Assembly: GCF_010119975.1 (NCBI RefSeq)
Contig: NZ_CP048222.1
Location: 6,238,501-6,302,500, forward strand
Length of the DNA stretch: 64,000 bases
Direction: 5' to 3'
From: Rhodocytophaga rosea
GTDB lineage: Bacteria > Bacteroidota > Bacteroidia > Cytophagales > 172606-1
This document shows, one piece after another, positions 24,687-34,429 of the stretch (the first letter of the stretch is position 1; every line of letters starts with the position of its first letter). The notes under the pieces are model-generated. The model did no database searches. It saw only the letters and a program-made list of their open reading frames with translations, and was not told the DNA's origin. Made by a program: the position numbers and the translations under genes.

Positions 24687-24774
24687 ATAGTTAGATGGTT
24701 ATAGTGTCGAATTGTTGAATAGCTGGATGATTCAAGACTTCCTCAGCAATTAAACCATCCAGCCATTTAACTAT
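24687..24774. repeat. Nested inverted repeats between metF and mvaB
   Basis: An outer imperfect pair (AATAGTTAGATGG near 24687 with CCATTTAACTATT near 24762) encloses an inner pair (GCTGGATG near 24721 with CATCCAGC near 24750). The structure fills the gap between two minus-strand genes and could weaken read-through or serve as a processing site. Confidence 0.4.
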
Positions 24775-25733
24775 TAAAACAAGGCTGAGGCTATTTTCTT
24801 TACCGTGTCGGATTTGCCCATGGAATAATAATGCAGCACTGGCACACCAAATTTCATGAGTTCTTTGGATTGCTGAATGCACCATTCTATACCTACTTGC
24901 TTGGCTTCTGCGTCTGTTTTACAGTTTTCAACAGCTTCGGCCAATGCATCCGGAATATCGATATGGAAAATACGGGGCAGTACGGTTATCTGCTTTTTAG
25001 TAGTAATCGGCTTTAAACCCGGAATGATCGGGATGGTAATGCCTTCTTCCCGGCATTTATTTACCCAGTCACAGTATTTTTCATTATCGAAAAACATCTG
25101 GGTTACTACATAATCGGCTCCCAGTTCCTGTTTCTTTTTCAGGTACTTAATATCAGTACGTAAGTTGGGCGCTTCAAAATGTTTTTCCGGATACCCTGCT
25201 ACGCCAATACAAAACTCAGTGGCAATAGGCGTTTTCATTTCTTCATCCAGATACATTCCTTTATTCATGTTGCATACCTGCTTGAGCAGATCTGTTGCAT
25301 AATGATGTCCATCCGGCTCGGGGCTAAAAGTAGGCTCCGTTTTAATAGGATCACCCCGGAGTACCAGTACATTCTCAATTCCTAAAAAGCTTAAATCAAT
25401 TAAGGCATTTTCTGTTTCTTCCTTGGTAAAACCACCACAGATAATGTGTGGGACAGCATCTACATGGAAACGATTCATAATAGCTGCACAAATCCCCACT
25501 GTTCCAGGACGTTTACGGGTAGAAATTTTTTCCAGTAGCCCATTTTCCCGTTTTTTATAGATGTATTCTTCCCGGTGATAGGTTACATCAATGAACGGAG
25601 GTTTAAATTCCATTAAAGGCTCAATCGCCTCAAATAAGCTGTGGATACTTTCGCCTTTTAAAGGAGGCAGGATTTCAAAAGAGAAAAGTGTTTTGTTCTG
25701 TGCGTCTTTAATGACTTGGGTTACTTTGGTCAT
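24774..25733 (-). CDS. metF: 5,10-methylenetetrahydrofolate reductase
   Basis: The 319-residue TIM-barrel flavoprotein reduces 5,10-methylene-THF to 5-methyl-THF, the methyl donor for MetH. Conserved segments include LFSFEILPPLKGE near the start, PPFIDVTYH, NVLVLRGDP, the ATEFCIGVAGYPEKH block and GADYVVTQMFFDN, matching the family. The gene lies 56 bases after metH on the same strand, so both are probably controlled by the SAM-I riboswitch upstream of metH. Length is slightly above the usual ~300 residues. Confidence 0.95.
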   Translation of the reverse strand: MTKVTQVIKDAQNKTLFSFEILPPLKGESIHSLFEAIEPLMEFKPPFIDVTYHREEYIYKKRENGLLEKISTRKRPGTVGICAAIMNRFHVDAVPHIICGGFTKEETENALIDLSFLGIENVLVLRGDPIKTEPTFSPEPDGHHYATDLLKQVCNMNKGMYLDEEMKTPIATEFCIGVAGYPEKHFEAPNLRTDIKYLKKKQELGADYVVTQMFFDNEKYCDWVNKCREEGITIPIIPGLKPITTKKQITVLPRIFHIDIPDALAEAVENCKTDAEAKQVGIEWCIQQSKELMKFGVPVLHYYSMGKSDTVKKIASALF

Positions 25734-32496: not shown

Positions 32497-32563
32497 ATCT
32501 TTAAAATCCTAAACTGGAAAAGATTTAAAAAATCGGGTGGATTATTTTAAATTTTCTGATGAT

Positions 32564-33259
32564 ATGATAAACAAAGTGTTTGAAAACGCAGACCAGGCTA
32601 TAGCCGATATACCAGATGGTGTTACCCTGATGCTGGGCGGTTTTGGTTTGTGCGGCATTCCTGAAAATTGCATCAGTGCTTTACTGAGGAAGAATATCAA
32701 AAACCTCACCTGTATTTCCAACAATGCTGGGGTAGACGATTTTGGAATTGGTCTTATGTTGAAAGGGCGGCAGATAAAAAAAATGATATCTTCTTATGTA
32801 GGAGAGAACGCAGAATTTGAACGCCAGTTGCTCTCTGGCGAGCTGGAAGTAGAACTTATTCCGCAGGGTACACTGGCAGAAAGAATACGTGCCGGCGGAG
32901 CTGGAATTCCTGCTTTTTTCACCCCAGCTGGCTATGGTACCGAAGTTGCCGAAGGCAAAGAAACCAGGGAGTTCGACGGAAAAATGTACCTGATGGAAAA
33001 GTGGCTGAGGGCTGATTTTTCACTGGTAAAAGCCTGGAAAGGGGATACAGCCGGAAATCTGATTTACCGGGGTACTGCCCGGAATTTTAACCCGATGATG
33101 GCTACTGCCGGAAAGATAACTATTGCAGAGGTAGAGGAACTCGTTCCTGTAGGCACGCTGGACCCCAATCAAGTGCATACACCTGGAATTTTTGTGCAGC
33201 GTATTTTTCAGGGACAACAGTATGAAAAGCGCATCGAACAAAGAACGGTGAGGGGATAA
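32564..33259 (+). CDS. scoA: 3-oxoacid CoA-transferase subunit A
   Basis: From the ATG at 32564 the protein is 231 residues and starts [19 protein letters not shown], as typical ScoA/AtoD subunits do. A GTG at 32537 would add nine residues. It has the family motif [14 protein letters not shown] and [15 protein letters not shown], and later [16 protein letters not shown]. With ScoB it forms a CoA transferase that moves CoA from succinyl-CoA (or acetyl-CoA) to acetoacetate. The active-site glutamate is on subunit B. scoA and scoB are usually adjacent or overlapping; here 513 bases containing another gene separate them. Confidence 0.95.
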
Positions 33260-33263
33260 ATTA

Positions 33264-33286
33264 GGAAATGTGAGAATGTGAAAATG
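33264..33286 (+). repeat. Left arm of inverted repeat flanking the four-helix-bundle gene
   Basis: This 23-base sequence starts five bases after the scoA stop codon and is built of GAAAATGT-like units (GGAAATGTGAGAATGTG and onward). Its reverse complement matches the ACATTTTC tandem array at 33715-33770 at 21 of 23 positions. The other two positions are G-U pairs in RNA, so a continuous 23-bp stem is possible. Confidence 0.75.
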
Positions 33287-33364
33287 AGCAGGGAATATGT
33301 AGTGGAATTAAGTGTTGTCTGATATGTCAGTGGGATAGAAGTAAATACATAAGTTGAGTGCGGT

Positions 33365-33715
33365 ATGGAGGAAAAAAAAGAAAATATTATTATCAGGTTG
33401 AGTTTTGAATTTGCCTTAAATATTGTTGAATATGCAGAGATGCTGGAGGAAAAAAGAAAATTTGTTATAGCAAATCAATTGCTAAAAAGTGGAACATCTA
33501 TTGGTGCCAACATCCGGGAAGCACAAAACGCAGAGAGTAAAAATGATTTTATACACAAATTTAAGATAGCAGCCAAGGAAGCAGATGAAACAGAGTATTG
33601 GCTGTTGCTATGTAAATTTGCAAAAAACTATCCCGACTCACAACTTCTACTCGATAAGCTGTATGAAATGAAAAAGATCATTTCTAAAATCATTATTACT
33701 TCCAAAATAAAATAA
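33365..33715 (+). CDS. Four-helix-bundle protein (S23 / 23S rRNA IVS family) between scoA and scoB
   Basis: The 116-residue protein is all-helical and shows the S23/IVS family pattern. A first helix includes RLSFEFALNIVEYAEML. The conserved block NQLLKSGTSIGANIREAQNA follows, then KIAAKEADETEYWLLL, then a C-terminal basic helix ending KKIISKIIITSKIK. The family was first seen in intervening sequences of 23S rRNA in Leptospira and relatives and is related to the Avd accessory protein of diversity-generating retroelements. Here it lies between the two subunits of a CoA transferase, with complementary repeats on both sides. No reverse transcriptase or variable repeat is nearby. Biochemical role unknown; nucleic-acid binding is inferred. 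Confidence 0.9.
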   Translation: MEEKKENIIIRLSFEFALNIVEYAEMLEEKRKFVIANQLLKSGTSIGANIREAQNAESKNDFIHKFKIAAKEADETEYWLLLCKFAKNYPDSQLLLDKLYEMKKIISKIIITSKIK

Positions 33716-33770
33716 CATTTTCACATTTTCACATTTTCACATTTTCACATTTTCACATTTTCACATTTTC
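33715..33770 (+). repeat. Seven-copy 8-bp tandem repeat (ACATTTTC)
   Basis: Seven identical ACATTTTC units run from 33715, overlapping the last base of the four-helix-bundle stop codon, to 33770. The array ends two bases before the scoB start codon at 33773. Any three units can pair with the left arm at 33264-33286. Its position covers the scoB translation initiation region, so copy number could influence scoB expression by slippage or structure. Confidence 0.93.
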
Positions 33771-33772
33771 TT

Positions 33773-34429
33773 ATGTTAGATAAACACGGAATCGCCAAAC
33801 GAATTGCCAGAGAAATAAAAGATGGAATGTATGTGAACCTGGGAATAGGTATTCCAACACTGGTGGCTAATTATATTCCTCAGGGAATTAATGTGGTATT
33901 ACAATCAGAAAATGGATTGCTGGGGATTGGGCCTTTTCCTCAGGAGCACGAAGTAGATCCGGATCTGATCAATGCCGGAAAACAAACCATAACCATGCTG
34001 CCAGGATCATCTATATTCAGTTCTGCGGATAGTTTTGCGATGATACGGGGAGGACATGTTCAGTTAACGATTCTGGGAGCGATGGAGGTATCGGAAAATG
34101 GGGATATTGCTAACTGGAAGATTCCTGGCAAACTGGTAAAAGGAATGGGAGGTGCCATGGATCTGGTAGCTTCTGCTGAGAATATTATCGTAGCCATGCA
34201 GCATGTGAGTAAAAATGGCGCTTCTAAATTACTCAAAGAATGTTCATTGCCACTTACCGGTTTAAAATGTGTAAAAAAGATTGTAACCGAACTGGCTGTT
34301 CTAGATGTGTTACCGGAAGGTGGATTTAAACTCATCGAACGGGCACCAGGGATTACAGTAGAGCAGATCAAACAAGCCACTGAAGGTAGACTGGTAATAG
34401 GAGGGGAGATACCGGAAATGGTGATTTAG
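33773..34429 (+). CDS. scoB: 3-oxoacid CoA-transferase subunit B
   Basis: The 218-residue protein carries the catalytic motif [13 protein letters not shown] with the active-site glutamate at Glu46, which forms the glutamyl-CoA thioester during transfer. [19 protein letters not shown] near the start and [19 protein letters not shown] in the middle are standard for ScoB/AtoA. It partners ScoA in interconversion of acetoacetate and acetoacetyl-CoA. The start codon lies two bases after the tandem repeat. The HMG-CoA lyase gene in the same region suggests a shared role in leucine or ketone-body catabolism. Confidence 0.95.

Follow-up and report, generated by a model that had tools for sequence, protein, structure and literature searches.

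The closest described relatives of the element analyzed here are the intervening sequences (IVSs) of bacterial rRNA genes. In one published account, the IVS in the 23S rRNA of Coxiella carries an S23 open reading frame (ORF) in the sense orientation, is closed by a 28-bp stem, and is cleaved by RNase III in vitro; it also has heptamer repeats, and the 5′ cut falls at the first of them (PMC4990558). The same account notes that, although IVSs have been known for more than 25 years, their function and origin are still unclear (PMC4990558). A second relevant description is that of MacGregor 2015, which reports TAACTGA heptamer repeats in Beggiatoaceae, Cyanobacteria, and five Bacteroidetes, many of them just 5′ of start codons (PMC4679880). 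We have analyzed a 64,000-nucleotide stretch of the genome of Rhodocytophaga rosea (assembly GCF_010119975.1, contig NZ_CP048222.1, positions 6,238,501 to 6,302,500 of the forward strand), referred to below as the window, in which an S23 gene with complementary flanks lies between scoA and scoB, the genes for subunits A and B of a coenzyme A (CoA) transferase. With somewhat more confidence than doubt, we conclude that this is an IVS-type element, made of an S23 gene and complementary arms of 7–8-bp repeats, that sits in a protein-coding operon and whose stem would keep the neighboring genes coupled. The locus consists of the following features.

32537–33259, + strand: scoA, CoA-transferase subunit A, the upstream host gene (ORF list; PF01144, CoA_trans, E 2.5e-79; stop codon TAA at 33257–33259).
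33260–33286, + strand: 5′ arm of GAAAATGT-type units, starting at the scoA stop codon (inverted-repeat search; Smith-Waterman score 39).
33365–33715, + strand: S23 or four-helix-bundle gene, 116 amino acids (PF05635, E 5.4e-22; NCBIfam TIGR02436, "four helix bundle protein").
33715–33770, + strand: 3′ arm of seven perfect ACATTTTC units, ending 2 nt 5′ of the scoB ATG (Tandem Repeats Finder; stem in the predicted minimum free energy, MFE, and centroid folds).
33773–34429, + strand: scoB, CoA-transferase subunit B, the downstream host gene (ORF list; PF01144, CoA_trans, E 2.6e-52).

The three genes lie on one strand, and the gap between scoA and scoB is 513 nt. An initial annotation, made from the sequence, had described the pair as interrupted by 513 bases holding an S23-family gene, and both the coordinates and the PF05635 match agree with this. 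The S23 protein scores 78.5 bits against that profile (curated cut-off 33.8), with residues 6–107 covering positions 2–105 of 106; its ORF matches only PF05635 and models of four-helix-bundle or hypothetical proteins, and a solved structure, entry 2rld (five chains), is a relative (E 6e-23). Tandem Repeats Finder reports the ACATTTTC array at 33715–33770 with period 8 and 7.0 copies at 100%, and its first A doubles as the final base of the S23 stop codon. Positions 33264–33286 are complementary to any three successive ACATTTTC units over 23 bp (21 Watson-Crick, 2 G-U), a figure from the annotation that our recount reproduced. Taken as inverted repeats, the arms extend to 27–29 nt at 86–89% complementarity. 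Their score of 39 is above chance, the median being 19 in 539 control genes from 20-kb stretches sampled at random in seven genomes that carry S23. The annotation's stem around the S23 gene was also recovered by RNA folding: the predicted fold of 33250–33790 contains it in both MFE and centroid structures (z −1.98 for the whole stretch). When the two arms are joined by a short artificial linker, the stem is the MFE structure (z −6.95) and the centroid is unpaired, as expected from the competing registers of the ACATTTTC array.

This build is that of the rRNA IVSs of Coxiella and Leptospira: common to both are a sense S23 ORF, a size of ~430–510 nt, terminal complementary arms of ~25–30 bp, and a sporadic distribution, and the Coxiella IVS also has 7-mer direct repeats in its 5′ region, near the RNase III site (PMC4990558). 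However, the present element is not inside a 23S rRNA gene but between scoA and scoB, and Rfam has no match within 33000–34000. More generally, the elements described below differ from rRNA IVSs in lying in protein-coding operons, between stop and start codons; in their S23 genes, which are under purifying selection and number up to 16 per genome; in repeats that are mostly locus specific; and in being accompanied by S23-less arrays of like design. The TAACTGA repeats resemble them as heptamer direct repeats near starts, with relatives that have shorter gaps lacking obvious repeats, but neither "S23" nor "four helix" appears in the text of PMC4679880. A survey of cas genes places 23S_rRNA_IVP genes in cas loci and cites the structure of Xcc0516, a relative of S23, with five four-helix bundles. 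No GxxExxY nuclease partner matched, with a crude letter pattern that is too coarse for a real test. Our search of the open literature, with most subscription papers outside its reach, turned up no published description of S23 elements located between the genes of an operon.

The Avd protein of diversity-generating retroelements belongs to the same four-helix-bundle superfamily as S23. Avd, however, acts with a reverse transcriptase and with template and variable repeats, whereas the immediate neighbors here are CoA-transferase subunits; no reverse transcriptase lies next to the element (the rest of the genome was not searched for one).

Complementary arms are a general feature of S23 genes across the Bacteroidota loci that we examined. 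We counted flanks as complementary arms at a score of at least 26. The family-level set held 29 S23 matches, of which 27 were scored, since L034 is a piece of the gene of L032 and was omitted and L036 was too short; 23 of the 27 reached the threshold, the 95th percentile of mismatched pairs being 24. Among the 30 best-scoring loci of the phylum, 19 lay above 27, the value of the 95th percentile for mismatched pairs (medians 31 versus 19). Of 80 named loci retrieved solely for their similarity to S23, 72 had arms, compared with 16/302 other ORFs in the same loci. A pooled set gave 126/174, and a set restricted to a single element per pair of neighboring genes (n = 71, "one per site" below) gave 47/71, against 25/539 control genes. 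The arms are also alike in construction: 7 or 8 bp is the best-fitting period for the 5′ arm in 110/113 pooled elements and in 41/43 one per site, compared with 2 of the 18 control arms that could be assessed, and G outnumbers C in the 5′ arm of 119 of the 126 pooled elements. The repeat itself mostly differs from locus to locus, and arms match their own partner better than those of other loci (35.9 versus 27.5 in the window's subfamily, 29.2 versus 16.2 in the others; 0/5000 permutations each).

A perfect 7-copy array resembles recent slippage, and the locus might be read as nothing more than a hypothetical gene next to a microsatellite that has slipped and is complementary to its flank by chance. 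The like build at dozens of unrelated sites, measured against controls, leaves this explanation a negligible probability, and the control counts above (16/302 and 25/539) speak against chance complementarity or a plain microsatellite. In a separate observation, sister species compared at a single site differ in the repeat copy number of the orthologous 3′ arm (L372–L374), which points to slippage there. One further S23 locus (L197, CALQAH020000002.1) comes from a metagenome bin titled Rhizobium; its arms and flanks resemble Flavobacterium sufB/sufC loci, so the contig is probably mis-binned.

The position of the elements is equally characteristic. The S23 gene and both neighbors are codirectional in 141 of the 160 elements with both neighbors called and at 57/71 sites counted once; an earlier cut gave 102/114, against a background of 318/411 neighboring pairs on a shared strand. 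Gene direction thus places S23 in the sense orientation. Counted one per site, the median distance is 0 nt from the upstream stop codon to the start of the 5′ arm and 6 nt from the end of the 3′ arm to the downstream start; at 26 of the 47 sites with arms, both arms lie within 20 nt of the gene ends. Sites named by hidden Markov model (HMM) matches over curated cut-offs include sufB/sufC, sdhA/sdhB, leuC/leuD, accB/accC, a carbamoyltransferase gene with pyrI (read as pyrB/pyrI), an acyl-CoA dehydrogenase gene with an ETF-domain gene, and metH/metF. Matches for fixC/fixX and nuoF/nuoG, the latter from short fragments, fell below whole-protein cut-offs, and two further HMM-named pairs are not subunits. 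Because five of the ten examined pairs were chosen for looking like subunits, the share of subunit pairs is no estimate.

Of 148 genomes sampled from the phylum, 116 have S23, with up to 16 genes in one genome, and its presence varies at fixed places. scoB was found in 24/39 genomes of the order, and we examined 24 scoB loci (22 from order genomes, the window's own, and that of the sister species). scoA lies directly 5′ of scoB in 15 of them; three of these carry S23, and the other 12 have gaps of 2–112 bp. The filled loci are those of the window, of Rhodocytophaga aerolata (S23 81% identical), and of G025, from another family (66%); two junctions of the window's own family lack S23 and have a 27 bp gap. 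A genus-level comparison (genus g73, eight genomes) covered five junctions, and all five vary in S23 presence among species: fixC/fixX (five with S23, three without, two of the empty ones with overlapping stop and start codons), nuoF/nuoG (two with, six without), a third junction (three and five), a fourth with a PhoH-like upstream gene, read by eye (four with S23 and four with ~220–245 bp lacking it), and thioesterase/thiolase (seven and one). In the alignments, made from 20 stretches of four junctions, neighboring reading frames are intact and no target duplication is evident. The tree of S23 genes by site had few columns, with 9/76 inner branches starred, too few to decide whether the S23 genes between scoA and scoB have a single origin. 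The annotation's proposal of an IVS-like element in a protein-coding operon is therefore upheld in its build (sense S23, complementary arms), which recurs at dozens of loci, and by presence and absence at the same junctions within one genus. It is not upheld as regards further copies: the window's genome (8.98 Mb, one contig) has two S23 genes, a whole-genome search found no other ACATTTTC array, and the second S23 gene (L002), 2.8 Mb away, has 27-nt arms, 96% complementary, of a very different repeat.

Arrays of this design also occur without S23. In genomes with the window's S23 type, AATKTG-type arrays are dispersed: 265 matches in 16 S23-carrying genomes (15/16 positive) versus 2 in 22 S23-free genomes. 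The reversed pattern, used as a control, gave 79 (exceeding the pattern itself in 3/16 genomes) and 3. R. aerolata, with one S23 gene, has 41 matches against 1 for the reversed control, amounting to about 20 arrays; F. caeni has 56 against 30. Very long AATGTGGT arrays in Chishuiella changwenlii (G196, the genome of L127) account for 95 of the 265. A 7-mer pattern, AGTANNN, gave 172 matches in 18 S23-carrying genomes (11/18 positive) versus 8 in 22 S23-free ones, 7 of these in one array; its reversed control gave 77 (above the pattern in 4/18 genomes) and 1. In all these counts the genome sets are not matched for composition, matches overlap and include the arms of S23 genes themselves, and some control matches may be other hairpins. 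When 40 regions were fetched by the AATKTG pattern, 38 had no S23 frame; opposite arrays lay within 300 bp of each other in 14 of the 38, and in seven of these 14 they abutted a gene border on either side; the rest of the 38 had one array at the threshold used. An ORF border lay within 15 nt on the outer side of 37 of the 59 arrays in these regions, on the inner side of 2/59, and near 7.7% of 286 random intergenic positions. The window contains one such hairpin, of other units.

24710–24775, − strand: hairpin without S23, built of other units and located between metF and the gene for HMG-CoA lyase (periodic inverted-arm scan).

At the orthologous place, R. aerolata has a AATTTGAA-type array, so that the two species differ in units but have the location in common. 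Of 11 R. aerolata array sites queried in the window's genome, six were compared (R. aerolata arms scoring 16–34), and none of the six has AATKTG arms in the window's genome. The first has clear arms, of other units (score 33), and a second has weaker arms (21); at a third a tandem array stands by itself, at a fourth only a 3′ arm is present, and the remaining two show nothing clear. The window's genome has 16 AGTANNN matches, none at its two S23 loci, which may mark them as a remnant of a lost S23 type. In 100-kb samples of five S23-free and seven S23-carrying genomes, periodic inverted arms numbered 0–4 per sample with no clear difference, too sparse a yield for the comparison.

Repetitive extragenic palindromes (REPs) and their associated tyrosine transposases (RAYTs) are arranged as a gene between inverted repeats, accompanied by short repeats dispersed through intergenic regions of the same genome, and the present elements may share this arrangement. 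By analogy, they could be a DNA-level mobile repeat system in which the arms are DNA-recognized ends, S23 helps in trans, and the S23-less arrays are nonautonomous copies. The excess of both patterns in S23-carrying genomes (265 versus 2; 172 versus 8), the 37/59 arrays abutting an ORF border on their outer side, and arms with no clear sense-RNA mismatch bias would all suit such a system, as would the repeat motif of the window's subfamily, which tracks S23 type across unrelated sites. As a general rule, recognition of one repeat per S23 type fails: outside that subfamily the motif is independent of S23 similarity, 40 pairs at 60–70% identity giving baseline scores. The AGTANNN arrays away from both S23 loci also count against a DNA-level system, as do the limits of the array counts (unmatched composition, overlapping matches that include S23 arms, 95/265 from one genome, reversed controls of 79 and 77). 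S23, moreover, is a four-helix bundle rather than a Y1 transposase, and the profile matches of the window's S23 ORF include no Y1 (HUH) tyrosine transposase; we know of no catalytic site in S23. Its arms consist of 7–8-bp repeats that mostly differ per locus, and its copies abut stop and start codons. On balance we judge a REP/RAYT-like system quite unlikely.

S23 coding sequences are constrained. The median dN/dS, the ratio of nonsynonymous to synonymous rates, is 0.064 (from the 104/528 sufB/sufC pairs passing a divergence filter), indicating purifying selection, and between the window and R. aerolata the nonsynonymous and synonymous proportions are pN 0.095 and pS 0.81 (saturated). The only S23 frame of R. 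aerolata, between scoA and scoB (L017 / L120), has no in-frame ATG near its N terminus as deposited, and a TGA precedes it. Purifying selection, long-term residence between sufB and sufC (33 loci), and arrays at gene borders would fit a settled host gene encoding an RNA-binding regulator, with intercistronic repeat hairpins as its binding sites and its own arms as autoregulatory ones. Yet close relatives have empty junctions, some genomes at 99–100% completeness are S23 free, the repeats are mostly locus specific rather than one per genome, and R. aerolata retains about 20 arrays although its sole S23 frame has that irregular start. A host regulator of this kind therefore appears improbable to us.

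How might an insert of 513 nt be tolerated between two subunit genes? Under the reading that we favor, the arms would pair within the polycistronic mRNA and loop out the S23 cistron, placing the upstream stop codon beside the downstream start codon. On reaching the end of the upstream gene, a ribosome would unfold the stem and thereby expose the downstream start; at the window locus, one finishing scoA would do so because the 3′ arm spans the region just 5′ of the scoB start. The upstream and downstream genes would in this way stay translationally coupled despite the insert. Such coupling fits the placement between codirectional genes and the two empty junctions with overlapping stop and start codons. 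The S23 protein, a putative nucleic-acid binder, may serve the persistence or movement of the element. By analogy with rRNA IVSs, RNase III may also cleave the stem. If cleavage were the main event, the insert would be excised: the scoA and scoB mRNAs would separate, scoB would be nearly leaderless, and the S23 RNA would be released. The near-perfect 23-bp stem at the window locus suits this alternative, and rRNA IVSs of like anatomy are cleaved within the stem by RNase III (PMC4990558). But cleavage would presumably uncouple subunit pairs, and the strong purifying selection on the S23 ORFs of the present elements contrasts with the argument that the excised Coxiella IVS probably yields no S23 protein (PMC4990558). 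We consider excision unlikely, but it is the foremost alternative.

Several observations weigh against the coupled, IVS-type element that we prefer. Fourteen of the 71 sites are not codirectional, 24 of the 71 have no arms at the score used, and among the 47 that do, 21 have at least one arm at a distance of over 20 nt from the gene end. Among sufB/sufC orthologs, arms match no better within than between loci (768/5000 permutations). If the arms paired as sense RNA, G-U mismatches might be expected to outnumber A-C ones; they number 122 versus 144 overall and 81 versus 57 one per site, showing no clear bias. At the element itself we saw no transposase, reverse transcriptase, or target duplication, and movement is read from presence and absence, of which losses could explain part.

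More tentatively, and as a possibility that we hold with more doubt than belief, the elements could form a phylum-wide class of mobile elements specialized for stop–start junctions of operons. In their full form, an RNA hairpin built of repeats would carry S23 in its loop; small forms lacking S23 would be spread through the same genomes, and rRNA IVSs would be a special case that landed in 23S genes; insertion would be in the sense orientation, probably via RNA, and the host would be spared because the stem restores coupling. If S23 elements do live mostly between operon genes, the rRNA IVSs are a side branch, and what S23 does, in a phylum where 116 of the 148 sampled genomes carry it, could be tested directly in ordinary laboratory bacteria. 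The proposal also points to a way in which an operon may accommodate an insert while its genes stay coupled.
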